A stretch of DNA of 64,000 nt from a virus. The notes beneath the pieces are model-generated. The model was given only the letters and a program-made list of their open reading frames with translations. It did no database searches and had not been told where the DNA came from. The stretch is taken from the IMG/VR virus record IMGVR_UViG_3300029911_000026, positions 1-64,000 of that record; one strand, written 5' to 3'. Shown here in pieces: positions 27,901 to 56,809 of this stretch. Both the position numbers and the translations under genes were made by a program. How positions within the stretch are numbered: the stretch's first letter is position 1; every line of letters starts with the position of its first letter.

Positions 27901-28928
27901 TTGGATCCCTTCTTCTCCGGCTCCAGCCAGAGGTAAAGCATAGACCCGACCTTGCGCTCCAAAAGCACGCGACCAGCTTCCTTGGCCCGGCGCCGGATGT
28001 GGACCAGCGTGTTCCCCGCATGGCGCTCGTCGCGGTTCTCCACTTCCTCAGCGTGGCCAGGGGCGAGCGCGAGCAGCTTGGCCCAGAGCGCTCCGGAGCG
28101 GCCCATGGGAGGGCGGAGGCGGGGCTTCTCCGGTGGGAGATCTTCGATCTTGATCGTGCGCGATGTCAGCTTGTCCAAGTGGCCTCCCATGACGTTTGCC
28201 TCGACTGTCAGGGTAACCTCTTCTGGGGCTGTGCTTTCCGTGGAAATATCGGGCGCTTTCTGGACAATTCCCCAATGGATGAGCCGACCCTCCATCTGGA
28301 CAATTTGGATGGCTCCGGCACCGCGCAAAAGCGAGCAGATGGCCGAACAGGTCTCAATGCCGAGGCCGGTTCTTTCGGCAAGCTCCCGAGAGGTTCTTGC
28401 GCCGTTTTTGATGGCGTCGAGGACGATCACCTTCTGCGGCCGGTCATCCAAGGCGACCCTGTGAGCTGGACCGATGCCAAAGGTGCGTGGTGCCGCATTG
28501 CGCTTCGGAGCCTTCTCGTTGACCCAGAGCGTCCCGTCCTTCATCTTCGTGCCGTTGCAGATGTAGCCGTGGAACCGGGTGCATCTCCCACTCTTGTTCT
28601 CCCAGCTCAATTGCTGGTCGCACCCGGCCACAATGCAAGTCTTTCCGCTGTAGCGCGAGATGGGTGTCGCATAGGGCCGTCGTCCCGGTTCAACTTTCCG
28701 GATTCCGGAAAGCATCGAGCGAGGGGAGGGGGTTGGCCTCTCGACCGGCAGCGACTTTCTATCGCGCTTCTGGCAGGGGTTGCACTGATCCTCATGGTTG
28801 TACTGCGAGAGGATCGTGGGGCAGGTCGCGCAGCGGCGAACGGGCGCGCCGATTGGCACCACTGACAAGTCCTCTTCCTCGTGCGGAGCCACCGAGGATT
28901 CCGTGCGCATCGGGAAATGGTGAGCCAT
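27897..28928 (-). CDS. Zinc-ribbon and winged-helix-like DNA-binding protein, regulator candidate
   Basis: 343 residues. The N-terminal third has CATCPTILSQYNHEDQCNPCQ and CIVAGCDQQLSWENKSGRCTRFHGYIC, two probable zinc sites. Residues about 160-220 (QKVIVLDAIKNGARTSRELAERTGLGIETCSAICSLLRGAGAIQIVQMEGRLIHWGIV) look like a winged helix. The C-terminus has HIRRRAKEAGRVLLERKVGSMLYLWLEP, a second helix-turn-helix-like part. It is the first gene after a phage-type promoter, with the ATG 7 nt from the -10 box. A transcription-control role is inferred from domains and position. Confidence 0.6.
   Translation of the reverse strand: MAHHFPMRTESSVAPHEEEDLSVVPIGAPVRRCATCPTILSQYNHEDQCNPCQKRDRKSLPVERPTPSPRSMLSGIRKVEPGRRPYATPISRYSGKTCIVAGCDQQLSWENKSGRCTRFHGYICNGTKMKDGTLWVNEKAPKRNAAPRTFGIGPAHRVALDDRPQKVIVLDAIKNGARTSRELAERTGLGIETCSAICSLLRGAGAIQIVQMEGRLIHWGIVQKAPDISTESTAPEEVTLTVEANVMGGHLDKLTSRTIKIEDLPPEKPRLRPPMGRSGALWAKLLALAPGHAEEVENRDERHAGNTLVHIRRRAKEAGRVLLERKVGSMLYLWLEPEKKGSK
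28696..28710. repeat. Dispersed palindrome, copy 7 (inside regulator candidate)
   Basis: Exact TTCCGGATTCCGGAA, read in frame as Leu-Ser-Gly-Ile-Arg-Lys. Confidence 0.95.
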
Positions 28929-28935
28929 AGGCGTA

Positions 28936-28964
28936 ACACTAACACAATAACAATAGACATGCAA
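28936..28964 (-). promoter_or_regulatory. Phage-type promoter, leaderless output
   Basis: TTGCAT, 17-nt spacer, TAGTGT with TGT before the -10. The ATG of the downstream gene follows the -10 by 7 nt. Confidence 0.6.
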
Positions 28965-29008
28965 CCTGCTGCGAACCGCCCGCCTCTAAGCCCGCTGAGG
29001 TACTTCCA

Positions 29009-29191
29009 ATGCCGCCCTACGTCAACATCGTCCTGCTCGCCTTCGCCGTGCTCTGCTTCTTCATCGCTGCCTTCTTCTGGAGTTCGGCGCCCGCGGGTCC
29101 GGCACCGACAACCTGGCAGTCGCGCATCTCGTTCGGATGGCTCGGGATGTTCTTCCTCGCGCTGGCATTGCTGTTCGGCCAGCGGCTATAG
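29009..29191 (+). CDS. Small two-helix membrane protein on the opposite strand
   Basis: 60 residues on the plus strand, the only convincing gene in that direction. GAGG lies 8 nt before the ATG. Two hydrophobic helices (VNIVLLAFAVLCFFIAAFFW and FGWLGMFFLALALLFG) are separated by a short polar loop. It occupies a gap without a minus-strand gene and ends tail to tail with the MuF gene, overlapping by 6 nt. Holin-like or envelope-acting; no plus-strand promoter is obvious. Confidence 0.55.
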   Translation: MPPYVNIVLLAFAVLCFFIAAFFWSSAPAGPAPTTWQSRISFGWLGMFFLALALLFGQRL

Positions 29192-30022
29192 GTCCGGAAT
29201 CTGTGGCTCTGGCCAACATCTGCAGTTGAAAATCTGGCCGGCATGTGCCCTCTGTCCGCCTGACCCTGAGATGGGCGGGTCGTCCCAACGAATGAACCTG
29301 CCTTCCAGGGCGCGGTGGGAGCCGATGAAGCGCGCGCGCTCGGCGGGCGGCATACTCAGGGCCGGTCTTACGTCCGAGTCTTTGCGGGTGCGCCAAACGT
29401 AACCCTCGGAGCCGATATGCTGCGCGCGCGCCTGGACCAGCAGGGATGACGTGCGCGCTACTTCCGTCCGAGCAATGAGCTTGGCGCGGCCGATGGTGAC
29501 GTTGCCGCTCTCTCGGATCTCGTCTGCGATCTCTGCTGCCCGGCGGCCGGTGAGCTGGGCCTCGCGGGTGAGATGGTGGACGCGCTGGGCGGCTTCGAGC
29601 GGGAGGCTCTTGATCAAGAGGACTTGCTCGTCCATCAGGTTGCGGCGGAGTAGGCCGGTGGGGGCTTCTTCTACCTCGCGGTGGAGTGCGCGACCTATCT
29701 CCGCACCGAATTGACGCCATGCTCGGAGGTCCTGCTGGGAAACCTGCGCTTGCATCCGTTCGGCGATTGACTTTGCCCACGGCGCAAGGGCCTCGGCGTA
29801 AGCGAGCAGGGAAGCCCGTAGGCTAGCGGGGTCAACGATGACGCCCGCCTCCTCAAAGCCGCGTACGAGCTGGCCAACCTGCCGTCCTACTCCGACCAAC
29901 TTCATGCCGAACTCGCGCTCTGCGATTGCCTTCATGCGGAAGCGCTCGCGGGTCTGCTTTCGGATGTCGGCGATCTCTTTGAGCGTTGGGCGCGCGGGCG
30001 GGGGTGTGGGCTTTGGGGCCAT
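29186..30022 (-). CDS. MuF-like head morphogenesis protein
   Basis: 278 residues. IGRAKLIARTEVARTSS, GYVWRTRKDSDVRPAL, LEGRFIRWDDPP and HAGQIFNCRCWPEP form the conserved C-terminal MuF domain. These proteins bind the portal and are packaged in the head. The N-terminal half is helical. It follows the portal and a small zinc protein. Confidence 0.85.
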   Translation of the reverse strand: MAPKPTPPPARPTLKEIADIRKQTRERFRMKAIAEREFGMKLVGVGRQVGQLVRGFEEAGVIVDPASLRASLLAYAEALAPWAKSIAERMQAQVSQQDLRAWRQFGAEIGRALHREVEEAPTGLLRRNLMDEQVLLIKSLPLEAAQRVHHLTREAQLTGRRAAEIADEIRESGNVTIGRAKLIARTEVARTSSLLVQARAQHIGSEGYVWRTRKDSDVRPALSMPPAERARFIGSHRALEGRFIRWDDPPISGSGGQRAHAGQIFNCRCWPEPQIPDL

Positions 30023-30393
30023 CAGGCTGTCTCGAAGCGGTTGGGCTTGAATTCATAGCCGGGCCAGGGAGCCTTGTGCGGGTCGATGATGGGCCGGCGG
30101 TGACGGATGGGAGAGATGGGAGCGGCGGGGCGGGGGTCCGGCTCGACCTCATCCTTATGCTCGCGGAGAAGCTGAATCAGGTAGGAGAGTGAGACGGTCT
30201 GCGGTCGCTCGTCCATCGGTAAGGGCTGGTCGAGGCACTTAGGGCAGTCGCGGCGCCCGCTCCCGATCTTGCGAGTGAAGTTGTCTCCGCACCGCTCGCA
30301 GACTTTCAGCTCCAGCCGGTTCGGGTCTATGCGGCGGGTCGTCCCTGACAACTCGAAGATGGCGACGGAGGCTGCGCAGGGTCGGCGTGGCAT
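30022..30393 (-). CDS. Zinc-ribbon hypothetical protein
   Basis: 123 residues. CERCGDNFTRKIGSGRRDCPKCLDQ is a four-Cys zinc ribbon. The C-terminus is Pro/Arg rich. Inserted between portal and MuF genes with single-base overlaps on both sides. Confidence 0.6.
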   Translation of the reverse strand: MPRRPCAASVAIFELSGTTRRIDPNRLELKVCERCGDNFTRKIGSGRRDCPKCLDQPLPMDERPQTVSLSYLIQLLREHKDEVEPDPRPAAPISPIRHRRPIIDPHKAPWPGYEFKPNRFETA

Positions 30394-31910
30394 CAGGGCT
30401 TCGCTCCAGGCTTCGGGGCGGGCTCCTCAACTCCTGGCTCCTCGCCGGCATTGACTTCGGCAACTTCGACCTTCGTCGCGGTGGGAACCTGCGCCTCTGC
30501 CTCGGCGTCCTCAATCACCTGGTCAGGAATCATGGTCCAGCGGCCGGTGCGCGTTCCGCTGTTACGCATCTCGCGCATGGCGACAACCGGGGTCACCACG
30601 CCCTTCTCGACCGCGTCGGTGAAGGTGCGGGTGTCGCGCTCGGCAATCTCGCTCTTCTCATTCTCGGTCAACTGCCAGAGCGACCGGAACTGGATACCGA
30701 AGCCGTCCGGAACTTTGATGCCCTCGCTCTGTGCGAGCATCCGGTACGTCATGGTCATGCCGATCTTGAGCTGGCGGTTCTGCTTCTGGAGGATGCCGTC
30801 ATAGTACGTCCGGAGGTCGGACTCGCCGCTGGAGTTCAAGCCGGCCGGTGACTGGCCGAGCAGCCGGACCAGGGGAACCTGCAGCGCTCCGCTGATCTGC
30901 ATGGCGAACTGCATCAGGACGTCGGCGAGGCCGGTATAGGCGGTCGTGCCGCCTTCTTTGTATTCGTCCTCGGCGTCGAGTAAGGTGATGCCCTCAGAGC
31001 TTGCGAACTGGCGCATCAGCTCGATTTGCTTGATGAGCCCTTCCATCGCCTTGCCGCCGGCGGCGGCGATCTCGCGGAGGCCCTTGATGGCGTAGGTGCG
31101 GATGTAGGCCTTGTATACCAACTGCCCAGCGCCGGTCGTCGCTGAGTCGAAGATGACCAGGCGGTCGAAGAGGCGCTCGAGAACTGAGATGCCCCACATG
31201 TTCTCGGCGACGCGCTGCCAGTAGGGGAGCCTGACGCCTTCCAGCCGGATGACCCGGGTGTAGTGAATCTTCTTCGTGCGGAGCCCGGGAGCGTTGGCGT
31301 CGACCGTGTAGAACTTCGGGAGGCCCATGAAGGGACCTTCCTCGGTGACCAGATCCTCCAGCGATGGTCGCACCATCCAGCGGTCGAGAACGATCTGCCC
31401 GCAGTATTGGCCCTTCCCTACGGTGTTGATCTTGAGCGGTGTCGAGTAATCCTGACCCTTGACCAGGTGTACGGCGATGCACCCGCCATAGAGTCTTGAC
31501 CATGCGACGTTGTCGGCTGTGGCTCCCCAGACATCGAGGCTGGTCGCGGCCTCTTCGATCTTGGTGCGGTCCTCGGCCTTGAGCTCGCCCAGGATGTCGA
31601 CGCCCGCGCGGGTCATGTCCTCCGCTACGACATCGATCGCCAGGCCGCCTATCCAGCTCCCGCGGTGTATCCATTCGAGCAGCGTGCGGATGCGGGTGAT
31701 CGGGTTGAAGCCATACGTACTCGAACTGAGCAGGTTGTCAGCGCCGACTCCGAGCTTCGCGGCGAAATTGTTGAAGCTGTCGAAGGTCTTGCCTGTAGCG
31801 GCGGAGCGGCCCTTGCGTTTCCTCGTCTGGGTCTGGAGAGCGTCGAGGGTTGCGGCCTCATCGGCCAGCGCTTGATCCCTCGTCTTAGTTGCGCTGCGCT
31901 TCGGCGGCAT
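30393..31910 (-). CDS. Portal protein (DUF1073 type)
   Basis: 505 residues from the ATG at 31910 (GGAGAG upstream); an earlier in-frame start lacks a SD. IDVVAEDMTRAGVDI, ARLYGGCIAVHLVKGQDY-like SRLYGGCIAVHL, PYWQRVAENMWGISVLERLFDRL and QVPLVRLLGQSPAGLNSSGESDLRTYYDGI match DUF1073 portals. The dodecameric portal is the DNA gate and packaging motor dock. C-terminal tail is Glu/Pro/Lys rich. Confidence 0.85.
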   Translation of the reverse strand: MPPKRSATKTRDQALADEAATLDALQTQTRKRKGRSAATGKTFDSFNNFAAKLGVGADNLLSSSTYGFNPITRIRTLLEWIHRGSWIGGLAIDVVAEDMTRAGVDILGELKAEDRTKIEEAATSLDVWGATADNVAWSRLYGGCIAVHLVKGQDYSTPLKINTVGKGQYCGQIVLDRWMVRPSLEDLVTEEGPFMGLPKFYTVDANAPGLRTKKIHYTRVIRLEGVRLPYWQRVAENMWGISVLERLFDRLVIFDSATTGAGQLVYKAYIRTYAIKGLREIAAAGGKAMEGLIKQIELMRQFASSEGITLLDAEDEYKEGGTTAYTGLADVLMQFAMQISGALQVPLVRLLGQSPAGLNSSGESDLRTYYDGILQKQNRQLKIGMTMTYRMLAQSEGIKVPDGFGIQFRSLWQLTENEKSEIAERDTRTFTDAVEKGVVTPVVAMREMRNSGTRTGRWTMIPDQVIEDAEAEAQVPTATKVEVAEVNAGEEPGVEEPAPKPGAKP

Positions 31911-31946
31911 CGAGACTCTCCGGATGAGCGATGGTAGCACGAAGTC

Positions 31947-33320
31947 TCATGCTCCCAATCTTTCCCACATGCCCAGCAGCCCGCGGCGCTGGATAAAGCC
32001 GTCGAGCGCGTAGCGTTCAGCATCGGGGCAATGGTTGTGTTTGTCAACTGCCATCGGCAAGATTTGGCCGGTGGCCTTGTCGATCTTGTAGCTGTAGAGC
32101 TTGAACTCGTCGGCGGTGTGCCGGCAGCGGGTGTGGATGTGGATCTTCCGGAAGGCGCGGAGATGGGCGATGCCGTCCTCGACGCACCCCTCCCACTTCT
32201 CAGCGGCTTCGATGTTGAATCCCTGGCGACGCATGTAGGAGATGAGTTCCGGACGGGCGCTGTCCGCTTTGATGGGCCACTTGCGCGCGGTGGGCACGGT
32301 CTGATCCCACATTGCAGCCGTGTCGTTGATCTCCAGGCCAACCTGCCAGCCCTCCCGGTCAATCCAGAGTTCCTCTTCCCCAATGCTGCCGGTGATGTAG
32401 GAGCGGAGGATGACCTGCGGGTCGATGGCGAAGCCCCAATCGACGCCATGGTGGAACACGGCATCAGCCGGGGTGTCGAAGTCATGCACGATGTACTTGT
32501 CTTTGAAGATGCAAGCGTCGGCGTGCATCCGGAGATGGCCGTCCCAGATATGGGCTGCGGCCTCTGGGTCCGTGAGGAAGGCGTGATCTTTCTCGAAGCG
32601 CATCTCATCGGTGAACCAGAGGTTCTCTCGCCAGTTCAGCTCGATCACCGCGGCGCCGGCCGGTATGCCCGTGCCGTCAGGATGGAAGCGCTGATAGGTC
32701 GCATCGCTGGCCAGGTTCGGGTTGTAGCTGATCCAGATCTCCGAGCCCTTCTTGCGGATGGTCGGGATGATGACTTCCCAGGTGCGGTCGGTGACGCTCT
32801 CTGCTTCTTCGACCCAGAGGATGTCAAAGCTCTCGAAGGATTTCAGCTTGGTCCGGCTGGCGCCGGTGCTCATGTCGCCCAGCCCAACGAAGCGGAACAT
32901 CGTGCCGTTTGGTGCGGTGATGCTCTTCGCGGTGACGTGGTACCAGTCGCTTAGGCCGAGAAGCTCGATCTGGTCTTTCAGCAGCCGGTGTACCGAGTCC
33001 TCCATCGTGTTCATGAACTCGCGACCACAGAGGATGCGGAGGCGCTTCTGCTGGCCGAGGATGAGCAGGGCCCGGGCTATGGACCAGGACTTTACCCCAC
33101 CGCGGCCTCCGTACAGGATCTTGTACCGGTGTGGCTCGAACAGAGGCGCGAGCTTCTCATGGAACTGAATCCGGTTGGCCCGGACTGGCGGGAGCATGGA
33201 GCCGCCATACTTGACGAAGCAGTCGATCTCCGCGATGTGCCCGCCATAGTGGGAGAAGGGGTCATCTGCGGCCTGGTAGACCTGGACTAAGGGTGGGCGG
33301 TCGAAGTGCGGCGGGATCAT
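31947..33320 (-). CDS. Terminase large subunit
   Basis: 457 residues. Walker A GGRGGVKS (71-78), Walker B FDILWVEEAE (165-174) and the nuclease domain residues in HHGVDWGFAIDP, IKADSARPELI and KHNHCPDAERYAL identify the packaging ATPase/nuclease of the PBSX-like type. Overlaps the small subunit stop by ATGA. Confidence 0.9.
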   Translation of the reverse strand: MIPPHFDRPPLVQVYQAADDPFSHYGGHIAEIDCFVKYGGSMLPPVRANRIQFHEKLAPLFEPHRYKILYGGRGGVKSWSIARALLILGQQKRLRILCGREFMNTMEDSVHRLLKDQIELLGLSDWYHVTAKSITAPNGTMFRFVGLGDMSTGASRTKLKSFESFDILWVEEAESVTDRTWEVIIPTIRKKGSEIWISYNPNLASDATYQRFHPDGTGIPAGAAVIELNWRENLWFTDEMRFEKDHAFLTDPEAAAHIWDGHLRMHADACIFKDKYIVHDFDTPADAVFHHGVDWGFAIDPQVILRSYITGSIGEEELWIDREGWQVGLEINDTAAMWDQTVPTARKWPIKADSARPELISYMRRQGFNIEAAEKWEGCVEDGIAHLRAFRKIHIHTRCRHTADEFKLYSYKIDKATGQILPMAVDKHNHCPDAERYALDGFIQRRGLLGMWERLGA

Positions 33321-33931
33321 GCGATTACCACCGTCCCCTCCGGGTGATCGATCTTGAACTGCGGCAGCGCGTCCTCTGGGATGTAGCCGCTCACCCCGTT
33401 CGGCATCCGTACCAGGACCATCGTTGGCGGCTTGGCCGGCAGGAACTCAATCGTGAACATCGGCGTGTCGTACCGCTCGTGGGACTCGATCTCCTCCGGC
33501 TTGACCGTCCGGGCCCGGGCTTCCATGTCGGAGCCGACCTTGCCCAGCGCCATCAACTGCTGGACGCTCATCTTGTCGAGGTCGGCGTCTGTGAGCTTGC
33601 GCAGGGCGTTGACAGCCCGGTTCTGGAAGGCGATGCCGAGGGATGCCTGACGGCGGCGCATCTCGGCCGTGCCGTTGAGGACTTCTTCGTTGATTACGCG
33701 GTTCTGATGGCGGTCCCATGCGGAGCAGCGGCGGACCCAGCCATGCTTGCTGGACCACTGTTCGAGCAGGGTATCGCTCTTCCCCTGTCCGTCCCTCAGC
33801 TTTGCCGCAGCCTTGGGTATAGAACGCTCGGCGCCGAGATCCCGGTAGGCGAGAAAGGCCTCGAAGGCTTGGGCGCTTTCATTTTCCTGCATGTCCCATG
33901 GTTTTAGGGCATCTGGGGCGAGACTCGGCAT
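33317..33931 (-). CDS. Terminase small subunit
   Basis: 204 residues. AFEAFLAYRDLGAERSIPKAAAKL, LLEQWSSKHGWVRRCSAWDRHQNRVINEEV is the helix-turn-helix region of phage small terminases, followed by an oligomerisation helix. It recognises packaging sites next to the large subunit. The ATG at 33931 has no clear SD; TTGCAC and CATACT with the ATG 7 nt after CATACT suggest a weak leaderless promoter. Confidence 0.8.
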   Translation of the reverse strand: MPSLAPDALKPWDMQENESAQAFEAFLAYRDLGAERSIPKAAAKLRDGQGKSDTLLEQWSSKHGWVRRCSAWDRHQNRVINEEVLNGTAEMRRRQASLGIAFQNRAVNALRKLTDADLDKMSVQQLMALGKVGSDMEARARTVKPEEIESHERYDTPMFTIEFLPAKPPTMVLVRMPNGVSGYIPEDALPQFKIDHPEGTVVIA

Positions 33932-34095
33932 GGGATAGAGTATGGGCCTGGAGGGGGGTTGGGTGCAAGCTCAATCGGCCAGCCCCGGGGAGCCGCTGAA
34001 GGTGTGGCTTCCCCTTCGTGCAATTCAGGGTAGCGGGTGCAAAGGCACATAGGGTCTGTGCACGGGCCGCTGTGCTGAGGGTGTGGGCACGTCAC
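33904..34095 (-). CDS. Small Cys-rich protein, GTG start
   Basis: 63 residues. The GTG at 34095 overlaps the stop of the preceding mini-gene (GTGA), so translation is probably coupled. CPHPQHSGPCTDPMCLC suggests a metal site; the C-terminus is Pro rich. It overlaps the small terminase start by 28 nt. Confidence 0.45.
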   Translation of the reverse strand: MTCPHPQHSGPCTDPMCLCTRYPELHEGEATPSAAPRGWPIELAPNPPPGPYSIPCRVSPQMP

Positions 34096-34181
34096 GCACT
34101 TGCGGCGGTCTGCGGGGGAACGTAGGAAGGCTCAGGAATCGGGTCTGCATCTTCGTACTCGTCCATGTTATCTGCTGGCAT
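34092..34181 (-). CDS. 29-residue acidic mini-protein
   Basis: The ATG at 34181 follows a strong GGAGGAG at 5-nt spacing. The product begins MPADNMDEYEDADPIPEPS and is acidic and Pro rich. SD overlaps the stop of the upstream gene. Function unknown; may mainly couple translation. Confidence 0.5.
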   Translation of the reverse strand: MPADNMDEYEDADPIPEPSYVPPQTAASA

Positions 34182-34183
34182 GT

Positions 34184-36342: not shown

Positions 36343-37203
36343 CTACGCCTCTACGAACTTCGCGTTGCCCTTGCCGTCCACGTTGATCCTGTACGCCACA
36401 TCCGGCTTGATACCATCTTCGCCAACGTAGCCGACTAGGATACGGTCACGCTTGCCGTCTGAGTACGCAGACGCAAAGCATCCATCCTTCCCCGCTTGCA
36501 CAATGCAGCCACGGCCTGCCGCCATAGCGATAGTCTTGTCCCCTGAGGATGCCGCCGTGCTGGAGTTCCCTGAGGATGCCGCCGTGCTGGAGTACCCTGA
36601 GGATGCCGCCGTGCTGGAGTTCCCTGAGGATGCCGCCGTGCTGGAGTCCCCTGAGGATGCCGCCTTGCTGTAGTCCCCTGAGGATGCCGCCGTGCTGGAG
36701 TCCCCTGAGGATGCCGCCGTGCTGTAGTTCCCTGAGGATGCCGCCGTGCTGGAGTACCCTGAGGATGCCGCCGTGCTGGAGTCCCCTGAGGATGCCGCCG
36801 TGCTGGAGTCCCCTGAGGAGATATTGGTAGGCTCCCCCTTCTTGGCGTTCGCCTTGACCTCAGTAAGCATATCCTTGAAATGCTGCTGATGATTGAGCAC
36901 CATCGTTACCGCTTCAGCCATACCGCCGCTGTAGACGACTACGCCACGCGGGAACTTCACCTTTTGCTCGTCGATCTTGACGATGGCCTCCGACTCAACC
37001 TCCACTACCTGCCAGATTGCATCGTGAGACTGATTGAGTAACGACCAATCGCCGTCACCCCACAGAAGCCCATGCAGACCTCCTCCACAGCGCGGGGTAG
37101 CATCCCAATCAGGGCACTCCACCGGGCCGGAAGTAGGCCACTGAAAACCACTGTGCGACGTTCCATCTGCTCTGCACGTCCGAATCACTAAGACCTTTGC
37201 CAT
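36343..37203 (-). CDS. Protein with nonapeptide tandem repeat
   Basis: 286 residues from the ATG at 37203 (AAGGAG, 6-nt spacing). The N-terminal part (CRADGTSHSGFQWP and CPDWDATPRCGGGLHGLLWGDGDWSLL) is followed by ten copies of a nine-residue unit such as SSGDSSTAA, then a beta-like C-terminal domain. The repeat could form a solenoid. Similar repeat-bearing proteins occur in phages with unknown roles. Confidence 0.65.
   Translation of the reverse strand: MAKVLVIRTCRADGTSHSGFQWPTSGPVECPDWDATPRCGGGLHGLLWGDGDWSLLNQSHDAIWQVVEVESEAIVKIDEQKVKFPRGVVVYSGGMAEAVTMVLNHQQHFKDMLTEVKANAKKGEPTNISSGDSSTAASSGDSSTAASSGYSSTAASSGNYSTAASSGDSSTAASSGDYSKAASSGDSSTAASSGNSSTAASSGYSSTAASSGNSSTAASSGDKTIAMAAGRGCIVQAGKDGCFASAYSDGKRDRILVGYVGEDGIKPDVAYRINVDGKGNAKFVEA
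36541..36829 (-). repeat. 27-bp tandem repeat, about ten copies, in frame
   Basis: Units of 27 bp (core ATGCCGCCGTGCTGGAGT on the plus strand) repeat with few changes inside the gene at 36343. Near-identity of units implies recent expansion and possible length variation. Confidence 0.95.
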
Positions 37204-38252: not shown

Positions 38253-38464
38253 GCAGCCCTCGATTCCGGATTCCGGAAAAGCTGGAGCATGGCGCGATCG
38301 TAATCGGCTTTCAGATCGGAGCGGGTGAGCCCTTCCGCTTTCATGCGCTGGAGGATGAGCTGGACGGTTTCCGCGGAGCTGTCCCGGGCCGGTTGCGGGA
38401 GCCGCGTGTTCTTTACGCGCTCCTCGGCTTCGGTGAGGCATTGGTGGAGGGTCGCGTAGGTCAT
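38249..38464 (-). CDS. Small helical protein ending with repeat-encoded residues
   Basis: 71 residues from the ATG at 38464. Helical and charged (LTEAEERVKNTRLPQPARDSS and LQRMKAEGLTRSDLKADYDRAM). Ends FRNPESRAA, where RNPES comes from the palindrome. ATGA overlaps join it to both neighbours. Confidence 0.6.
   Translation of the reverse strand: MTYATLHQCLTEAEERVKNTRLPQPARDSSAETVQLILQRMKAEGLTRSDLKADYDRAMLQLFRNPESRAA
38264..38278. repeat. Dispersed palindrome, copy 8 (C-terminal codons)
   Basis: Exact TTCCGGATTCCGGAA, read as Arg-Asn-Pro-Glu-Ser near the stop codon, and just upstream of the next gene's SD. Confidence 0.95.
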
Positions 38465-38604
38465 TGGCCAGCCTCCATTTCGTCCGCCTCGGAATAGCTT
38501 GCCACGTCGGAGCGAACATCTGCCGGAAGAGATGCGAAGGAACCTGCGGCGACCTGCTCGGCGATTATGGGATCGAGCCAGCCGGTTTGTGTCGGTGTTT
38601 CCAT
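38461..38604 (-). CDS. Small acidic protein, first gene of operon, leaderless
   Basis: 47 residues from the ATG at 38604 (METPTQTGWLDPIIAEQVAA). There is no SD; the ATG follows the -10 box TAGTAT by 6 nt, so transcription probably begins at the start codon. Overlaps the next gene by ATGA. Function unknown. Confidence 0.6.
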   Translation of the reverse strand: METPTQTGWLDPIIAEQVAAGSFASLPADVRSDVASYSEADEMEAGQ

Positions 38605-38610
38605 ATACAA

Positions 38611-38639
38611 ATACTATCAAAGTATTAGCGTGATGTACA
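38611..38639 (-). promoter_or_regulatory. Phage-type promoter, leaderless output
   Basis: TGTACA, 17-nt spacer, TAGTAT with TGA before the -10. It drives the small-gene run and perhaps the structural genes beyond. Confidence 0.7.
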
Positions 38640-42658: not shown

Positions 42659-42687
42659 CCATAGCAGCATATTGTTAGTACGTCAAT
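42659..42687 (-). promoter_or_regulatory. Phage promoter with operator-like motif
   Basis: TTGACG, 17-nt spacer, TATGGT. The spacer contains GTACTAACAAT (42672-42682), shared with the promoter at 49.65 kb. Confidence 0.6.
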
Positions 42688-42974: not shown

Positions 42975-43068
42975 TGGAGCGGGGTTCCGGGTTCGAACCG
43001 GCGGCCTCCGGGCTGGAGCCAACCTTGCGGCTGACCTGACCGACGCTCTACCACTGAGCTACCCCCGC
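42975..43068 (-). tRNA. tRNA-like gene, anticodon uncertain
   Basis: GCGGGGG acceptor, GCTCAGTGGTAGAGC D arm, GG(T)TCGAAC T loop and encoded CCA are clear. The anticodon arm TCGGT-CAGGTCA-GCCGC places GGT (Thr) in the loop, but position 33 is A instead of T and 27-43 is unpaired. The 7th acceptor pair and one T-stem pair are also mismatched, and the variable region is about 24 nt. It may be degraded or non-canonical. Confidence 0.6.
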
Positions 43069-44371: not shown

Positions 44372-44512
44372 TTATCGACTTGGATTGTGGAGGAGGTCGC
44401 GTTCGATCGTGAAGTTGCCGGAGCAAGCCACGCGGATGTCGTCGGTCTGCCACTTCTCTACGACTTCATGGATGATAGAGAGGACGGAGCTGGGGAGGGA
44501 GCCGCGGAACAT
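44372..44512 (-). pseudogene. N-terminal fragment, likely broken gene
   Basis: 46 residues (MFRGSLPSSVLSIIHEVVEK and then WQTDDIRVACSGNFTIERDL) resemble from memory the start of a larger phage protein with a CSGNFTIER motif. The frame stops after 46 codons, and a +1 shift would enter the open frame that runs to 44002. Natural decay, a mosaic joint or a sequence error are possible. Confidence 0.4.
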
Positions 44513-44709
44513 GGGGGGAGTTTACCACCATAAGCTGTCCAGAGTAGCGGCATATATCTCACCGCCCCTGTGAACGTGAAGAACGGTAGCGCCATGATGA
44601 CTTCGCCTGTAGTAGCTCCAGTGGGAACGAAAATCCATAGCTCCCAAGGCTCGTGATTGGGGCCGGACTTCCTGATTCTCATTCTCATTCCGGATTCCGG
44701 AAAGTTCAT
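44458..44709 (-). CDS. Small hypothetical protein starting in a repeat
   Basis: 83 residues from the ATG at 44709, which has GAGG at 5-nt spacing and overlaps the DUF488 stop (ATGA). Starts MNFPESGM, encoded by the palindrome. Another frame here (MDFRSHWSYYRRSHHGATVL, stop at 44522) also reads plausibly, so the choice is uncertain. Confidence 0.4.
   Translation of the reverse strand: MNFPESGMRMRIRKSGPNHEPWELWIFVPTGATTGEVIMALPFFTFTGAVRYMPLLWTAYGGKLPPCSAAPSPAPSSLSSMKS
44688..44702. repeat. Dispersed palindrome, copy 12 (N-terminal codons)
   Basis: Exact TTCCGGATTCCGGAA, read as Phe-Pro-Glu-Ser-Gly from codon 3 of the gene at 44709. Confidence 0.95.
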
Positions 44710-45080
44710 AGCAACCTCTGTTGTCTGGGCTCGGCTTTGGCCGCTGGGAGCAGCTCGCGCACCGGGACGCCAAGCTGCTTCTCGAACCATGCCGCCGCCA
44801 GGTGCCGGTGGCAGAACTCGCCTGGACCTTCCCAGCAGAGCAGGATGGCCTTCTCTCCGAGTTCCTTGGCGATCTTCTTGGCGTCGAGGCCGGCGAGCTG
44901 CTTCGTGTAGATTTCAGTGAACTCGGCCTCGGTCATCTCGCCAGCGCGGATGCGCTTGACTGCCCACATGGGCGGAGCGAGAGCGCGGCACTTCCGGATA
45001 GGGTCGTAGCCCCTGGTGCCGTTGGAGATGGCGACCGCATCGGGGTGACGGCCAGACGTTTTGAAGTTCGATGTAAACAT
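44706..45080 (-). CDS. DUF488 protein, leaderless
   Basis: 124 residues. AILLCWEGPGEFCHRHLAAAWFEKQLGVPVREL matches DUF488 (CWE...CHRxxAA). These small proteins have unknown enzymatic roles. The ATG at 45080 follows the -10 box TAGTAT by 6 nt without a SD, predicting a leaderless mRNA. Confidence 0.78.
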   Translation of the reverse strand: MFTSNFKTSGRHPDAVAISNGTRGYDPIRKCRALAPPMWAVKRIRAGEMTEAEFTEIYTKQLAGLDAKKIAKELGEKAILLCWEGPGEFCHRHLAAAWFEKQLGVPVRELLPAAKAEPRQQRLL

Positions 45081-45086
45081 ATCTCT

Positions 45087-45116
45087 ATACTATCAGACTG
45101 TTAGCGCTTTCGTCAA
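45087..45116 (-). promoter_or_regulatory. Phage-type promoter, leaderless output
   Basis: TTGACG, 18-nt spacer, TAGTAT with TGA before the -10. The -35 overlaps the stop of the upstream gene. Confidence 0.65.
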
Positions 45117-49607: not shown

Positions 49608-49651
49608 GGTGGTGTCTCCTGTGTTGGGCGTGGTGCTAACAATCTACTTTC

Positions 49652-49681: not shown

Positions 49682-49687
49682 CAAGAA

Positions 49688-51275: not shown

Positions 51276-51336
51276 GGTGCCTCAATGTAGCCGCGCCGGG
51301 GCTGAGGATGCCCGGCGCGGATTGTGCAAACGTGGA

Positions 51337-51879
51337 TTACTTGATGACCAGGTAGCGCTTGCCGGGATGGTCCTCGATGGCAACCTCTGGGGGGATGGCT
51401 TCTCCAGCCGCAAGACGGCGCTGGATCTCCGACTTGTTCAATTCGTGCGTCGTGCGCACGATGCTGGGGTCGGTGATGGCGATCGTGTTCAGATCCGCGT
51501 CCGCCGCCAGCCCGACGGTGACGGTGTTCGCTCCGGTGACGCCATAGGCGCTGGTCTTGGCGGTCTTGATCTTGCCGCCGTGGACCTCGTCGATGAGCAT
51601 GAGCATCCGGGAGCGCAGGTTGTCAGCGTCGCGCTGGAACATCTTCTTGCGGTCGGCCATGCGCTTGCTCTCTTCGTCGGCCATCTCAGCCTCGGCCTTG
51701 ATGCGGCGCCAGACGGCGGCAGCGGCGTCGAGCTTATCGGGACTGGAGCGGAGACAGGCGTCGAGACGGGCTTCCAGCTCAGGCGTGAGTTCGCCTTCCG
51801 TCTCCTGGAGGATGAGCATGATGTCCTGATGTTCCTGGACGATAGCGAAGATCGTCGGGCGGTTCGGTTTGTCCGTCAT
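51337..51879 (-). CDS. Gp157-like protein
   Basis: 180 residues from the ATG at 51879. ELTPELEARLDACLRSSPDKLDAAAAVWRRIKAEAEMADEESKRMADRKKMFQRDADNLRSRMLMLI is the coiled-coil core of the siphovirus Gp157 family, often linked to recombination or replication modules next to Sak-type ATPases. Confidence 0.78.
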   Translation of the reverse strand: MTDKPNRPTIFAIVQEHQDIMLILQETEGELTPELEARLDACLRSSPDKLDAAAAVWRRIKAEAEMADEESKRMADRKKMFQRDADNLRSRMLMLIDEVHGGKIKTAKTSAYGVTGANTVTVGLAADADLNTIAITDPSIVRTTHELNKSEIQRRLAAGEAIPPEVAIEDHPGKRYLVIK

Positions 51880-51985
51880 AAGGCTCCCTTTTGGTTGCGG
51901 GTTGGGGTTTGGGCGCACAGGCCGAGCAGAGCTCGACCTCCATGCCGTTGATCATGGTCCACTGGCCCTTGCAGCAGGGTTTCAT
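51779..51985 (-). CDS. Small zinc-ribbon protein
   Basis: 68 residues from the ATG at 51985, which overlaps the upstream stop (ATGA). MKPCCKGQWTMINGMEVELC and SAC give a CC...CxxC metal site. Its 3' end overlaps the Gp157-like gene by about 100 nt, which is long and lowers certainty. Confidence 0.45.
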   Translation of the reverse strand: MKPCCKGQWTMINGMEVELCSACAPKPQPATKREPYDGQTEPPDDLRYRPGTSGHHAHPPGDGRRTHA

Positions 51986-52098
51986 GAAGGCTTTCTCTTG
52001 CCGCACCAGAAACATTCATTGGCCGGTCTGGTCGGGCCGTCGTCGTAAACATGGCCTCCATGGCGTATCGAGCACCACAATTCTCTTAGCCAGGTCAT
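51982..52098 (-). CDS. 38-residue zinc-like protein
   Basis: From the ATG at 52098, overlapping the ATPase stop (ATGA). LWCSIRHGGHVYDDGPTRPANECFWCGKRKPS has a C...CxxC pattern often seen in small phage proteins. Translationally coupled on both sides. Confidence 0.55.
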   Translation of the reverse strand: MTWLRELWCSIRHGGHVYDDGPTRPANECFWCGKRKPS

Positions 52099-53546
52099 TC
52101 TGCGGCCTCCAGCTCTTCGGTAAGCGTCTGCGAGCCTGGGAGGATGTTCTCCGGGTCGATCGTGAGCGGCACTTCGGAGATGATCTTTCCCTTCATGTAG
52201 TGCTTCGTACCGACGCAGGTCACGTCCTCGATGCTCACGTAGTTATCCTTGGCCGGCTTGAGTACCATGTTGCACGTCTGGCCCTTCGCCTCTGATAGGG
52301 CCGGGAACAGCGACTTGTGCCAGCATGTAGCGGTGTTGGTTCCAAAGGCAACGCCGTTCATTGTGACCTTGAAGAACTCGCGGCCGCCAGCGGCTTCGTG
52401 GCGGGTCGCATCGAGCACAACGCATTGCACGTCGCCGTTATCGAAGAAGAACTCCCCAGCTTCGCCCTGGTTCTCATCCTCAGCCGCGGCGAATCCAGCA
52501 CCAGCATCGGCCAGCAGTTCAAGCTCGCGGTTGATGGATGGCCAGTCGCTACGATGCTTCTGGATGAGCAAGGCGCGGGCTCCAGCGTCCATGCGCAGAG
52601 CGTCCATCGACTGCCGAGCGATCTTCTCATCGTTCGAGACGCGCGTGCGGTCGAGCCAGCTTGTCAGCTCGAATAGGCGTGAGCGCGGGACCAAGCGGGA
52701 GGACTCGTAGCCCAAGCCCTTGACGTGTTCGGCGAACACTTCGCGGGTAATGCTGTTGGCCTTCATCATGCCGGCCAGGTTTAGGATGTCCGCTTCGGTG
52801 AGAAGTTCGACGGGGGGAACGATGCCGGAACTTAGCCACTTCCAGATCTTCCGCGCCGTCTCCGGGTCCAGCAGATCAACCGGTGGCCCTCCGGCGAACA
52901 GCTCAGTCCGGTCCTTACTCACAAAGGCGCGGTGCTCGCTGTCCAGGTCGAACACCAGCGAAAACTCGTAGTCGACGCCCTCGCGCTGGATAGGGGCAAG
53001 GCCGACCTTGCGGGGAACCTTCTTACCGTCCCGCTCCTCCAGCACGTATTCCATCTTCGAGCGCATCGTGCAGATCGTGTGGACGTCGAGCGCTTTGATG
53101 AACTCGATGAACTCGGTGTGCTCTGGCGAGAGCTTCGACCAATTGGCGAAGCCGTTACCTCCAGCCGCGTCGAGAGCGTCCTTGCGCGAGCGTATGCCCC
53201 CTGCGCCTTCCCATTGGTGGGAGATGGAGTCCACTACCAGCACGTCATAGCCCTGGGTCACAGCAATCTGCATGGCGCGCTTGTAGCGGTCGCTCGTATA
53301 GGGCGAGGTCAGATGGATGTGATCGAAGGGGTAGATGTCGGCGTAGAGCTCCATGGTGCGGTTCTCGGTATCGACTCCGAGGACCTTCCAATCTCCGGGC
53401 TTGCCGCGGTCAACGGCCATCTGCTGTGCGATTGCGACGGCCAGCGCGAGAGCGCCTTTGGTCTTGCCTGAGCCGCTTGCACCATCTACGGCCATCTTGA
53501 GCTTTACGCGGGACTTGACCGCGCGGCGGGGGGTGAACTCGTCCAT
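52095..53546 (-). CDS. Sak4-like RecA-fold ATPase
   Basis: 483 residues from the ATG at 53546 (GGAG 6 nt upstream). Walker A GASGSGKT (22-29), VLGVDTENRTMELYAD and YDVLVVDSISHQWEGAGG (Walker B region) match AAA_24/Sak4 annealing-type ATPases. The C-terminal half (about 320-483) may bind DNA. Probably a recombination ATPase acting with Gp157-like protein. Confidence 0.75.
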   Translation of the reverse strand: MDEFTPRRAVKSRVKLKMAVDGASGSGKTKGALALAVAIAQQMAVDRGKPGDWKVLGVDTENRTMELYADIYPFDHIHLTSPYTSDRYKRAMQIAVTQGYDVLVVDSISHQWEGAGGIRSRKDALDAAGGNGFANWSKLSPEHTEFIEFIKALDVHTICTMRSKMEYVLEERDGKKVPRKVGLAPIQREGVDYEFSLVFDLDSEHRAFVSKDRTELFAGGPPVDLLDPETARKIWKWLSSGIVPPVELLTEADILNLAGMMKANSITREVFAEHVKGLGYESSRLVPRSRLFELTSWLDRTRVSNDEKIARQSMDALRMDAGARALLIQKHRSDWPSINRELELLADAGAGFAAAEDENQGEAGEFFFDNGDVQCVVLDATRHEAAGGREFFKVTMNGVAFGTNTATCWHKSLFPALSEAKGQTCNMVLKPAKDNYVSIEDVTCVGTKHYMKGKIISEVPLTIDPENILPGSQTLTEELEAAE

Positions 53547-53557
53547 CTTCGTCTCCA

Positions 53558-53572
53558 TTCCGGAATCCGGAA
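53558..53572. repeat. Dispersed palindrome, copy 14 (before a start codon)
   Basis: Exact TTCCGGAATCCGGAA in the leader of the ATPase gene, 11 nt before its ATG and directly before the SD. Confidence 0.95.
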
Positions 53573-53582
53573 AACACGGGGC

Positions 53583-53608
53583 CGAAAAGGGCACCCTCTC
53601 GGGTGCCC
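53583..53608 (-). terminator. Terminator of the RHH gene
   Basis: GGGCACCC-GAGA-GGGTGCCC followed by TTTTC on the minus strand, a perfect 8-bp stem. Confidence 0.85.
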
Positions 53609-53634
53609 TCGCGGTGCTCATCTGCCAGAGCTGG

Positions 53635-53847
53635 CTAGGCGGCTTTCGCCTTCTCTTGCGATCGGATGTGACTGAGCACGACATCCATGATGAAGCTAGA
53701 CATCGAGCGTCGGTCTGCGGTAGCCGCTGCCACTATAGCCTCCCGCTCCTGTGGTGTGGAGGGATAAACCATAATGGGACCGGTTTTCAACTTTCCACCG
53801 CGAGGCAGTTTCTCCGTCTCGGTAGCTTCCTGTGTCGCAGTGCTCAT
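53635..53847 (-). CDS. Ribbon-helix-helix regulator, leaderless and monocistronic
   Basis: 70 residues. GPIMVYPSTPQEREAIVAAATADRRSMSSFIMDVVLSHIRSQEK has the strand-helix-helix pattern of Arc/MetJ-type repressors (P-x-E-x-x-x-I ... SxSxFI). The ATG at 53847 follows the -10 by 7 nt without a SD. Own promoter and own terminator isolate it from both neighbours, typical of a regulator. RHH proteins bind palindromic DNA. Confidence 0.72.
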   Translation of the reverse strand: MSTATQEATETEKLPRGGKLKTGPIMVYPSTPQEREAIVAAATADRRSMSSFIMDVVLSHIRSQEKAKAA

Positions 53848-53854
53848 AAGCACT

Positions 53855-53883
53855 ACATTAGCGGGTTCACTGCGTTGTGTCAA
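53855..53883 (-). promoter_or_regulatory. Promoter of the RHH gene
   Basis: TTGACA, 17-nt spacer, TAATGT. Confidence 0.7.
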
Positions 53884-53935
53884 CACCGGGGCTGTGGACG
53901 GTTTGGGACTTGACGTGGAAAACTCGGTCACAGCG

Positions 53936-54676
53936 TTAGGCTGCGGCCGATATGGCTTCTGGGGAGACATTGCTCTCCTCCTCTTCTGACCCTTCGGTCG
54001 GGAACTCGTGAACCTCGGCCTTGGCGAGATTCTCTTCGGCCTTCTGCTGGTTCTTGAGCAGGTCGTCAACGGCCTTGACCGAAGTCAGCCACTTGCCCTT
54101 CTCGGAGTCTGACCGCATCGGCATCATCACACCGAGCGCGCCGTTGGGATGGGTCTTGACCAGGTAGGCTCCATCCTTTGCACCTGGCCAGATGGCGACG
54201 AAGTTGCTGCGATCTGCGCCGCTGCCGCTGGGCCGACCGAGCGCGTCAACGATGCGCTGGAGCAACGTGATGTCGAAGGTGATGATCGGGTCGCCCGTGA
54301 CCTTCGGCATGACCGCCTCGAAGTTGGGGAAGTTGCCCTTCTCCGGCCGGCGGAACGTGACCGTCTTTCCGTCGAAGTGATTGGCGACGATGATCTTGTC
54401 GTCGATCGCTTGGATGCTGACGTACTTGCCGGGGTTGGAGTCGTAGATGGGAACCGTTTTGAGCGCCTTGCGGTACTCCTGCAGCGCCTCCGCGGTTATC
54501 CATCCGCTCGTCTCTCCGGTGTCCGGGATGACGTGGGTGATGACGAGCGCGTTTCCGTTGGTTGCGGCCAGGTGACCCTTGTCCGCGTCGAAGTAGACGT
54601 GATTGATGGTGTACCGGCTCTGTTCTTTCGAGCAGACCTTCTCGATCAGGCCGCTCCCGAGATTCGTAAAGTGCAT
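53936..54676 (-). CDS. Sliding-clamp-like protein (DnaN-like)
   Basis: 246 residues. LAATNGNALVITHVIPDTGETSGWITAEALQEYRKAL, FPNFEAVMP and a terminal LGVMMPMRS echo conserved features of beta clamps (PxF...VxP and MPMR), though only about two thirds of the usual 360 residues. A C-terminal acidic tail follows. It would tether a polymerase or nuclease to DNA. Confidence 0.6.
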   Translation of the reverse strand: MHFTNLGSGLIEKVCSKEQSRYTINHVYFDADKGHLAATNGNALVITHVIPDTGETSGWITAEALQEYRKALKTVPIYDSNPGKYVSIQAIDDKIIVANHFDGKTVTFRRPEKGNFPNFEAVMPKVTGDPIITFDITLLQRIVDALGRPSGSGADRSNFVAIWPGAKDGAYLVKTHPNGALGVMMPMRSDSEKGKWLTSVKAVDDLLKNQQKAEENLAKAEVHEFPTEGSEEEESNVSPEAISAAA

Positions 54677-54740
54677 GGCGTGTCTCCTGTGTTGCTTTGG
54701 GCGTTGGGTTGTGGCAGCATAAAGGCTGCTCGTTTGTCCA

Positions 54741-54769
54741 CCGCTGGGCTTCTGCGAGAGGCCCAGCGG
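54741..54769 (-). terminator. Nine-bp hairpin between two genes
   Basis: CCGCTGGGC pairs with GCCCAGCGG directly after the stop of the gene at 54775. No T tract, so it may stabilise RNA rather than terminate. Confidence 0.45.
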
Positions 54770-54774
54770 ACTCC

Positions 54775-55326
54775 TCAGAACGGGTAGTCGGTAGTCTCCC
54801 CTCCAATCTCCTGATCGTGTTCCGCTTGCTCTGTGGATGGGTCCGGCGGTTCAAGCTGTAGGCTCGCGGGAGCCCCAAGCTCGTTCGTGGCGTCCATGAC
54901 GATTGAGGCGCCCGCTCCAAGTAGGCTGGGGCAATCCCATTCGATGACGTCCTCCTCGCGTTCGGGTTGTGCCTCTACGAACTTGGCTGGCTGGGCTGGG
55001 ATGACGCGCTTCCCGACAACCTTCGGCATACAGACCGTCGCGCGGATGGCGACAAACTTCAACTCGACGCCATCGCCAAAATCCTTCACCAGTCGGAAGT
55101 AGCTTTCATCGACTTGCTTCTCGCAAGCTCCGAGCCGGAGCCGAGCCAGCGCCATGAACGCCAGCGAGTCGATGGAATGGTTGACGCCAGACTGGTCTGG
55201 CAACGAGCCTCCATAAACGCTGATGCTGATGGCGTCCGGCATCGGCAGATCGGTTGTGGCCATGAGGTCGGCCAACTGGTGTAGCTTGGCGCATATCGCT
55301 GCGCGCCGCTCAGGGGTAGGGTTCAT
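54775..55326 (-). CDS. Hypothetical protein
   Basis: 183 residues from the ATG at 55326 (GAGGAG). Mixed fold with ISISVYGGSLPDQSGVNHSIDSLAFMALARLRLGA and a long Glu/Pro-rich tail. No motif recognised. Lies in the DNA-metabolism operon. Confidence 0.55.
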   Translation of the reverse strand: MNPTPERRAAICAKLHQLADLMATTDLPMPDAISISVYGGSLPDQSGVNHSIDSLAFMALARLRLGACEKQVDESYFRLVKDFGDGVELKFVAIRATVCMPKVVGKRVIPAQPAKFVEAQPEREEDVIEWDCPSLLGAGASIVMDATNELGAPASLQLEPPDPSTEQAEHDQEIGGETTDYPF

Positions 55327-55354
55327 CGTGAATCTCCTCATCGTGGATTTGGTT

Positions 55355-55369
55355 TTCCGGAATCCGGAA
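55355..55369. repeat. Dispersed palindrome, copy 15 (intergenic)
   Basis: Exact TTCCGGAATCCGGAA between the stop at 55374 and the start at 55326. Confidence 0.95.
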
Positions 55370-55373
55370 AGGG

Positions 55374-55487
55374 TTAGAGGTTGAACGAAGCTGCGGTTAG
55401 AACGACGGTCACAGCGTAATAGGCGATCAGCAAGGTGATGCCGGTCAGCATGGCGTAGTCATTGATCTTCTCGTTTAGGGTCTGCAT
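55374..55487 (-). CDS. 37-residue membrane protein
   Basis: From the ATG at 55487 with AGAGGAG at good spacing. One hydrophobic helix (AMLTGITLLIAYYAVTVVLTAA). Function unknown; placed between DNA metabolism genes. Confidence 0.6.
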   Translation of the reverse strand: MQTLNEKINDYAMLTGITLLIAYYAVTVVLTAASFNL

Positions 55488-55505
55488 GGCGTTTCTCCTC
55501 TTCTA

Positions 55506-55775
55506 TCAGAATGATGGTGCGAAAACGTCGAACTCGGTTGCGGGCCGCGCGGCATCTTGCTCTGCGGCCAGTTGGCGGAAGTGAAGCTCGCGCTCGTGGC
55601 AGATGGGCTTGCCGGTGCGCCTGTAGAGGTTGCCCCAGCGGAACGCCAGGTGGTGAGGGCCATACTTATCGGCCCGGGCCTTCTTCGTGCTGACGAAAAC
55701 TCCATCGTCAACCTCGACGGTGCGGCCACCGGCGGAGCGGGGATATCCTCTCGGACGCTGCCAGATGCCTTTCAT
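55506..55775 (-). CDS. Small hypothetical protein
   Basis: 89 residues, basic. YPRSAGGRTVEVDDGVFVSTKKARADKYGPHHLAFRWGNLYRRTGKPICHERELH reads as a compact domain. Overlaps the Ku stop by ATGA, so the two are coupled. Confidence 0.5.
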   Translation of the reverse strand: MKGIWQRPRGYPRSAGGRTVEVDDGVFVSTKKARADKYGPHHLAFRWGNLYRRTGKPICHERELHFRQLAAEQDAARPATEFDVFAPSF

Positions 55776-56620
55776 GCAACCTTCTTTCTGGACACGGCCT
55801 CGACGGATGCGGTGAGCGCGGCGAGCATGTCCTGTTTCTCTGGGGCCGCGCGGCGGATGGGAATGACTGGAGCCTTGCCGTCGATCTTGGCGGCGACCAG
55901 GGCTTTGACGTTCACGACGTAGCCATCGGAGAAGTCCTCCGGGTTGAACGTGCCGGCCATGCCCTGCACCAACTGAGTGCCGAGCTTGACCTCTGCGGTC
56001 GAGAGGGTGAGCTGGTCAATCGGGAACGGAGCCGACTTGAGTTCCGACTGGTAGAACAGCGAGTGCAGCGCGATGCCCTGCTCAAAGGGACGGATGAGGA
56101 TGATCTGCTCACTGGACCCGAACGCTGCGCGCCCGATACCGACCTTGCCGGTCTTGCGAAGGATGTCGCGGATGAGCATGTAGGGCTTGGAACCGCCGTC
56201 GCCTGGGGCAACGTAGTGGCTAGTCTCGAAGTAGATAGGGTCAACGTCCGAGGCGTCGACGAAGCGGTCGATCTCGATGATGGTCGAGCTTTCCGGCTTC
56301 TGGGCTTCCAACTCTTCGGCGGAGATGACAACAAACTGGCCCTTGCGGTACTCGTAGCCCTTCACAATCTCGTCGCTGGCCACGTCCTCATTGCATTGTG
56401 GGCAGGTCATGGACTGCTGTTTCAGGGTGCCGAGGCACTTCGCATGAAGCTGGCGGAAGCGGATGCGGTCGGCGCGCGCGCCGGTGTGGAGCTTGATAGG
56501 GAAGGTGAGAAGCCCGATCTGGAGCGTCAGATTCGTTCCAGATGAGCGCTTAGGCTCGCTGATAGGCGAGACGTTGGACGGGGCGGGGAGTGCGGTAGGC
56601 TTAGCGGCTGATCTTGCCAT
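55772..56620 (-). CDS. Ku-like DNA end-binding protein
   Basis: 282 residues from the ATG at 56620 (AGGAG). TLQIGLLTFPIKLHTGARADRIRFRQLHAKCLGTLKQQSMTCPQCNEDVASDEIVKGYEY, ISAEELEAQKPESSTIIEIDRFVDASDVDPIYFETSHYVAP and ALHSLFYQSELKS are hallmarks of bacterial Ku; the CPQC pair is present. Ku homodimers thread onto double-strand ends and recruit a ligase. A C-terminal basic tail is seen. The partner ligase is 5 kb upstream. Confidence 0.85.
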   Translation of the reverse strand: MARSAAKPTALPAPSNVSPISEPKRSSGTNLTLQIGLLTFPIKLHTGARADRIRFRQLHAKCLGTLKQQSMTCPQCNEDVASDEIVKGYEYRKGQFVVISAEELEAQKPESSTIIEIDRFVDASDVDPIYFETSHYVAPGDGGSKPYMLIRDILRKTGKVGIGRAAFGSSEQIILIRPFEQGIALHSLFYQSELKSAPFPIDQLTLSTAEVKLGTQLVQGMAGTFNPEDFSDGYVVNVKALVAAKIDGKAPVIPIRRAAPEKQDMLAALTASVEAVSRKKVA

Positions 56621-56774
56621 AAGGCTCCTGTAACTGCTCGAATGGTTCGGTGTAGCGCTGGTCGCGTTCCGCAATTCGGAAAGCAACCGCGCCCACGGTG
56701 GTTTGGAACCGGAAGGCCAGATATTCGAGCATGAGCTCGGTATGGTCGGTCGCGGTGATGGGCATAATGTCCAT
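56601..56774 (-). CDS. 57-residue protein, leaderless, first gene of Ku operon
   Basis: From the ATG at 56774 (MDIMPITATDHTELMLEYLA). No SD; the ATG follows TAGTAT by 6 nt. Its 3' end overlaps the Ku start by 20 nt, so Ku translation is coupled. Function unknown. Confidence 0.6.
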   Translation of the reverse strand: MDIMPITATDHTELMLEYLAFRFQTTVGAVAFRIAERDQRYTEPFEQLQEPYGKISR

Positions 56775-56780
56775 GAACTA

Positions 56781-56809
56781 ATACTAACATTGTACTAGTG
56801 TACTGTCCA
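56781..56809 (-). promoter_or_regulatory. Phage-type promoter of the Ku operon
   Basis: TGGACA, 17-nt spacer, TAGTAT, with TGT before the -10 and ACTAACATTGT over the spacer. Confidence 0.7.

Follow-up and report, generated by a model that had tools for sequence, protein, structure and literature searches.

Candidate leaderless genes behind sigma70-like promoters in a contractile-tailed phage

The IMG/VR virus record IMGVR_UViG_3300029911_000026 was analyzed over a window of 64,000 of its 64,767 bases (G+C content 60.9%). At least three genes of this phage, those starting at 45080, 56774 and 38604, and probably a fourth at 53847, are predicted to head leaderless transcripts, whose 5' ends would lie at the ATG or no more than 1 nt from it. 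We put the probability of this reading at roughly three in four. The original prediction had named five starts, these four and one at 28928, at which an ATG follows a −10 box by 6–7 nt with no Shine–Dalgarno (SD) sequence, and all five were recovered in this layout on the minus strand. The sequence supports leaderless transcription well for the first three and makes it probable for 53847, but the case for 28928 is weak; our trust in the five follows the order 45080, 56774, 38604, then 53847, then 28928. The genes, some of them short open reading frames (ORFs), and their promoters are listed below. The score counts matches to TTGACA and TATAAT at a spacing of 16–18 and is raised by an extended −10 element.

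44706..45080, minus strand: DUF488-like gene of 124 amino acids, strong leaderless candidate; ATG 6 nt past TAGTAT, in-frame TAG 12 nt upstream, no SD.
45087..45116, minus strand: promoter of 45080, TTGACG-18-TAGTAT, extended −10 TGA; score 10.0.
56601..56774, minus strand: ORF of 57 amino acids, strong leaderless candidate; ATG 6 nt past TAGTAT, in-frame TAG 6 nt upstream, no SD.
56781..56809, minus strand: promoter of 56774, TGGACA-17-TAGTAT, extended −10 TGT; score 10.5.
38461..38604, minus strand: ORF of 47 amino acids, leaderless candidate (strong promoter, short gene); ATG 6 nt past TAGTAT, in-frame TAG 12 nt upstream, no SD.
38611..38639, minus strand: promoter of 38604, TGTACA-17-TAGTAT, extended −10 TGA, with the dyad AATACT-N5-AGTATT; score 9.5.
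53635..53847, minus strand: gene for a 70-amino-acid protein, probable leaderless candidate; ATG 7 nt past TAATGT, no SD.
53855..53883, minus strand: promoter of 53847, TTGACA-17-TAATGT; score 9.
27897..28928, minus strand: gene of 343 amino acids, weak leaderless candidate; ATG 7 nt past TAGTGT.
28936..28964, minus strand: weak promoter of 28928, TTGCAT-17-TAGTGT, extended −10 TGT; score 7.5.

All five starts have the TANNNT box 6–7 nt ahead of the start codon that marks leaderless (TA-led) genes. At 38604, 45080 and 56774 the ATG follows the final base of the −10 box at a distance of 6 nt; for 53847 and 28928 the distance is 7 nt. An SD of at least four matching bases is absent from each, as in leaderless genes, and a pyrimidine–A pair stands at the predicted transcription start in every case. 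With a sigma70 promoter, a 6-nt spacing puts the usual start point on the A of the ATG, and a 7-nt spacing puts it one base earlier or, given a shift by one base, on the A itself. The arrangement exceeds chance. A search of both strands gave 10 sites scoring at least 9, all on the minus strand, and 4 of the 10 have the ATG of an ORF of at least 40 codons at +6/+7. In 60 dinucleotide shuffles, with no ORF demanded, an ATG at +6/+7 turned up 0.12 times on average and at most once. The pattern TGNTANNNT-N6-ATG, with no −35 box demanded, occurs 4 times against 0.35 expected, and none of 100 shuffles reached 4; the fourth match, at 44512, was not counted as a candidate because it has no clear −35 box. 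The five ORFs also score positively for codon usage (0.074 to 0.412 per codon), and the other two same-strand frames are negative.

In the explanation that we favor, a host-type sigma70 RNA polymerase would read the −35 elements resembling TTGACA or TGTACA, together with the extended −10 (TGNTAGTAT) at the three strong promoters. Transcription would then start 6–7 nt past the −10 box, on the A of the ATG, and ribosomes would initiate on the 5'-terminal AUG. Leaderless initiation is independent of SD recognition. Since these ATGs lack an SD, mRNA reading through from upstream would be poorly translated, and each gene would be tied to its own promoter; genes that would lie further down the same mRNAs, Ku for example, have SDs.

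As the true start, the ATG is well supported for 45080 and likely for 56774 and 38604; it is contested for 53847 and 28928. At the three strong candidates an in-frame stop 6–12 nt upstream, in or just behind the −10 box, makes an upstream ATG or GTG start impossible. A TTG two codons upstream of 38604 has no SD, and the nearby downstream starts at all three lack a good one. For 45080 (codon score 0.344) the next in-frame start comes only at codon 38. Its product gives weak DUF488 matches in Pfam (DUF488-N3a, 25.6 bits, under the cut-off of 27), and a homologue in another phage contig, L013 (43%), whose alignment begins at residue 3, carries a GTG at the corresponding position. The products of 38604 and 56774 are short (47 and 57 amino acids) and found no homologue, so they could instead be leader ORFs that yield no useful protein. 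The promoter would then serve the next gene, and the ATG at +1 would be incidental or a coupling device. This would fit the overlap with the next, SD-bearing gene, which amounts to 4 nt at 38604 and to 20 nt at 56774, where that gene is Ku (55772–56620). Both ORFs, however, have gene-like codon bias (0.184 for 38604 and 0.412 for 56774), the exact N6 spacing is above chance, and 45080, with its length and its homologue, is not explicable as a leader. We regard leader ORFs as an unlikely explanation.

At 53847 the competing start is an in-frame ATG at 53970, 41 codons upstream, with AGGAGG 6 nt ahead of it and the frame open throughout. Were it used, the box before 53847 would be a chance resemblance or an internal site. 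The extension of 41 codons scores −0.273 per codon, however, below every one of 350 in-gene windows of that length (minimum −0.236), and the TTGACA-17-TAATGT promoter sits within it, which leaves initiation at 53970 doubtful. The product that starts at 53847 has a weak Pfam match to TacA1 (E 0.0009, 19.6 bits against a cut-off of 21), and a dyad search placed an inverted repeat on its start codon.

53839..53854, minus strand: dyad AGTGCT-TATG-AGCACT over the 53847 start codon.

In a read-through RNA this dyad would form an 8-bp hairpin (−11.5 kcal/mol, z −3.3) with the AUG in its loop, whereas an RNA that begins at the AUG cannot form the hairpin. This agrees with leaderless use, though the dyad could just as well be an operator.

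The case for 28928 is evenly balanced between a leaderless start and a gene that is leadered, or that starts at codons 21–24, with a box that matches by chance. The promoter shows up only when the threshold is lowered to 7.5, and the start taken alone is not above chance, the N7 form of TGNTANNNT-ATG that holds it occurring once against 0.49 expected. GTG or TTG codons stand at 21–24, with AGGA 7–10 nt ahead of codons 21, 23 and 24, and the matched family region begins at residue 30. On the other side, the promoter has an extended −10 and the TTAG core of the others, and ATG is usually preferred to GTG or TTG. A search for relatives of this gene returned the same phage only. At the syntenic place in the contigs L032 and L067 no match was found, the homologues of the flanking genes lying closer together there, and the gene appears to have been inserted.

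In a more general alternative, non-sigma70 or read-through promoters at a greater distance upstream would drive transcription, and the ATGs would be used independently of an SD on leadered mRNA. Read-through is likely, since almost every called gene is on the minus strand and the gaps between genes are mostly small; 22 of the 95 called genes lack an SD of at least four bases. Against this stand the strong matched promoters at fixed spacing and the 53847 hairpin, which would enclose the AUG of a read-through RNA. We judge this alternative decidedly unlikely.

The promoters of the three strong leaderless candidates are not a class of their own. As the original prediction held, other promoters serve genes with SDs: the first SD-led start lies 20–77 nt past the −10 box for 31910, 42628, 49607, 62445 and 57994. 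The three N6 promoters have CTA-N2-A-N3-TGNTAGTAT in common, and this pattern, with at most 2 mismatches, gave 7 matches against 0.68 expected; it was built from those three sites, which are among the 7, and of the remainder one is a reverse reading and three are additional sites (42661, 58072 and 62494). The match at 42661 coincides in part with the leadered promoter of 42628. The other two, identified by pattern and matrix, are as follows.

62494..62522, minus strand: leadered promoter of the class, TGTACA-17-TAGTAT, 48 nt before the SD-bearing ATG 62445.
58072..58100, minus strand: leadered promoter of the class, TGTACG-17-TAGTAT, 77 nt before the SD-bearing ATG 57994.

Sites of the class precede both SD-less and SD-led starts, and one promoter class would thus feed leaderless and leadered genes. 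Leaderless transcription itself is already known; this is the most interesting remainder of the analysis. The class element is near-palindromic, its opposite strand at 38608 scoring 22.2 against maxima of 14.0–17.8 in 10 shuffles; the weight matrix was trained on five sites, whose own high scores follow by construction. An exact dyad with 6-base arms was found in 10% of random 55-mers, so the dyad of a single promoter means little, and a dimeric regulator of the class is a lead, not a result. That the class (TGTACA/TTGACG-N17/18-TAGTAT, with CTA-N9 before the −10 and a near-palindromic element) forms a regulon of the phage's own under a dimeric phage regulator is a long shot. If true, one signal would switch on leaderless and SD-led genes, and their translation would differ when initiation factors or the 30S subunit are altered in infection.

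The genes behind the five promoters are otherwise held only by contigs ~99.9% identical to the window (IMG/VR 3300029915_000178 and _000214), which provide no independent test of conservation. The phage has a dispersed palindrome, TTTCCGGAWTCCGGAAA, with 20 sites at up to 3 mismatches (for example at 400, 7249, 14020, 28695, 41992, 53557, 55354 and 56924), and at three sites it lies directly ahead of a start codon (7242, 41988 and 53558). A scan of viral contigs for the palindrome TTTCCGGAWTCCGGAA gave 50 stretches, including contigs ~63–75% identical in parts. Eight palindrome-sharing loci had the leaderless layout at 2 of 5 sites scoring at least 9 and at 3 of 15 scoring at least 8.5. Two of the three are in the contig L074, at a radical-SAM gene (437) and at a 111-amino-acid GTG gene (4156), and the third is in L067. 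Among controls at the threshold of 9, the layout was seen at 0 of 6 sites in portal relatives, 0 of 19 in the contig G005, 0 of 25 in G002, 0 of 7 in Dylan, 0 of 2 in Magia and 1 of 5 in Bordetella phage IFTN9; at 8.5 it was seen at 1 of 12 in portal relatives and 2 of 35 in G005, which are partly the same DNA. The IFTN9 match is its annotated Cro/CI-type gene. There (34437–34449 of L133) the gene starts 6 nt past a −10 box TAAATT with no SD, and is another repressor of leaderless type.

Several points weigh against the leaderless assignment in these comparisons and in the window itself. The L067 site (4106, plus strand) is oriented away from the structural genes and could be a chance occurrence. 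Dylan, used as a positive control, gave 0 sites when SD-free starts were demanded and one without that demand, although Cluster O, to which it belongs, is predicted to have three leaderless promoters; the test therefore misses true candidates. The promoter score is ad hoc, and the set of 95 genes comes from a home-made caller that missed the ORF 61321–62445. This ORF, which has a promoter of the shared class and an SD, overlaps in another frame the ORF 61136–61855, which contains the end of a DNA ligase domain; a frameshift or sequence error is possible within 61136–62445.

The radical-SAM gene was followed through 46 listed viral-contig loci, L074's own included, of which 39 were scored, the omitted ones being L171–L175 (54–56% identity) and the fragments L178 and L179. 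Its start is preceded by an SD at 27 of the 39, has the leaderless layout at 1 (L074's own, entered as L134) and has neither at 11. In this family one phage thus appears leaderless where most relatives have SDs. Relatives of Ku (none found) and of the AAA and DUF932 genes (distant ones) revealed no shared leaderless gene.

The window holds a contractile-tail structural module with portal, large terminase, major head protein, tail sheath and baseplate wedge. The portal matches 1,541 phage records; the best listed, at 51% identity, are Edwardsiella and Burkholderia phages, followed by Bordetella and Acinetobacter phages. Its relatives in bacterial genomes (34 loci) are mostly in Burkholderiales, Xanthomonadales and Alphaproteobacteria, and also in Nitrospirota and Firmicutes. 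For the structural proteins the nearest counterparts are in proteobacterial phages and prophages, and for the Ku and ParB-like genes in actinobacteria phages. A host assignment through portal relatives and phage proteins was attempted and none was made, as the relatives span phyla and Ku and ParB-like point to actinobacteria phages. A comparison of 20 kb of the window with 50,697 phage records gave no near match.

Besides Ku, the phage has a gene at 51337–51879 that is classed as Mu Gam-like end protection by PHROGs and as Sipho_Gp157 by Pfam. Three tRNA genes lie at 15834–16087 and one tRNA-Thr at 42975–43068; a strong sigma70-like site is found upstream of each group (at 16229 and 43120, respectively). 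An ATG likewise stands at +7 behind the site at 16229 (TTGACA-17-TAGGAT), but its ORF has just 23 codons and the tRNA cluster comes next, and this site was taken as a tRNA promoter and not counted. A 27-nt unit forms a tandem array at 36484–36861, inside the gene 36343–37005; the near-identical contig 3300029915_000214 spans the array as two overlapping alignment pieces, and the copy number may differ.

The practical yield for this phage group is that gene starts are corrected and small genes added that SD-based annotation would miss or misplace. The analysis also offers a comparison, within one promoter class, of leaderless and SD-led genes. General ideas of phage gene expression are unchanged.

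The original prediction had called leaderless mRNAs rare in well-studied phages. This was only partly right and is overstated, as lambda cI and PY54 cI and cro are leaderless and further cases are predicted in Cluster O. Work on Thermus phages has reportedly dealt with leaderless transcripts as well. Transcripts of PY54 cI and cro start at the AUG by rapid amplification of cDNA ends (RACE), and the same paper gives lambda cI as leaderless (PMC4488713); three leaderless promoters are predicted in Cluster O mycobacteriophages (PMC4351075), and phage transcripts are described as "often leaderless" in the AR9 paper (PMC5312081). In bacteria, TANNNT ~12 bp upstream marks leaderless genes, whose mean share in the genomes that have them is 13.3% in Acidobacteria (3 of 3 genomes), 19.2% in Actinobacteria (86 of 89), 39.4% in Deinococcus-Thermus (5 of 5), 15.8% in delta-Proteobacteria (8 of 33) and 6.8% in beta-Proteobacteria (9 of 71) (PMC3160421). 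Five starts per 95 called genes would be ordinary in several of these groups.

With the Cluster O phages Corndog and Dylan, which have the predicted SigA promoters PL1, PR2 and PL2 (PMC4351075), the present phage shares a dispersed palindrome and Ku, AAA ATPase and ParB-like genes. Cluster O phages have long flexible tails, a Mycobacterium host and the 17-bp palindrome TGTTCGG-N3-CCGAACA, whereas this phage has a contractile tail and TTTCCGGAWTCCGGAAA; its tail sheath and baseplate genes, and the lack of a near match for 20 kb of the window among 50,697 phage records, set it apart from the cluster. Like lambda cI and PY54 cI and cro, the candidates would be transcribed from the start codon, which is proven by RACE in PY54 (PMC4488713) and predicted from sequence here. 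Unlike the CI and Cro repressors, only 53847 among the five matches a possibly DNA-binding family, and that weakly (TacA1, below cut-off); the other four genes match no repressor family above the Pfam cut-off. In layout the candidates resemble TA-led bacterial genes (PMC3160421), including those of Deinococcus with their 6–7 bp spacing (PMC12340547): box and spacing are alike, and where theirs are cellular genes, these are genes of a phage.

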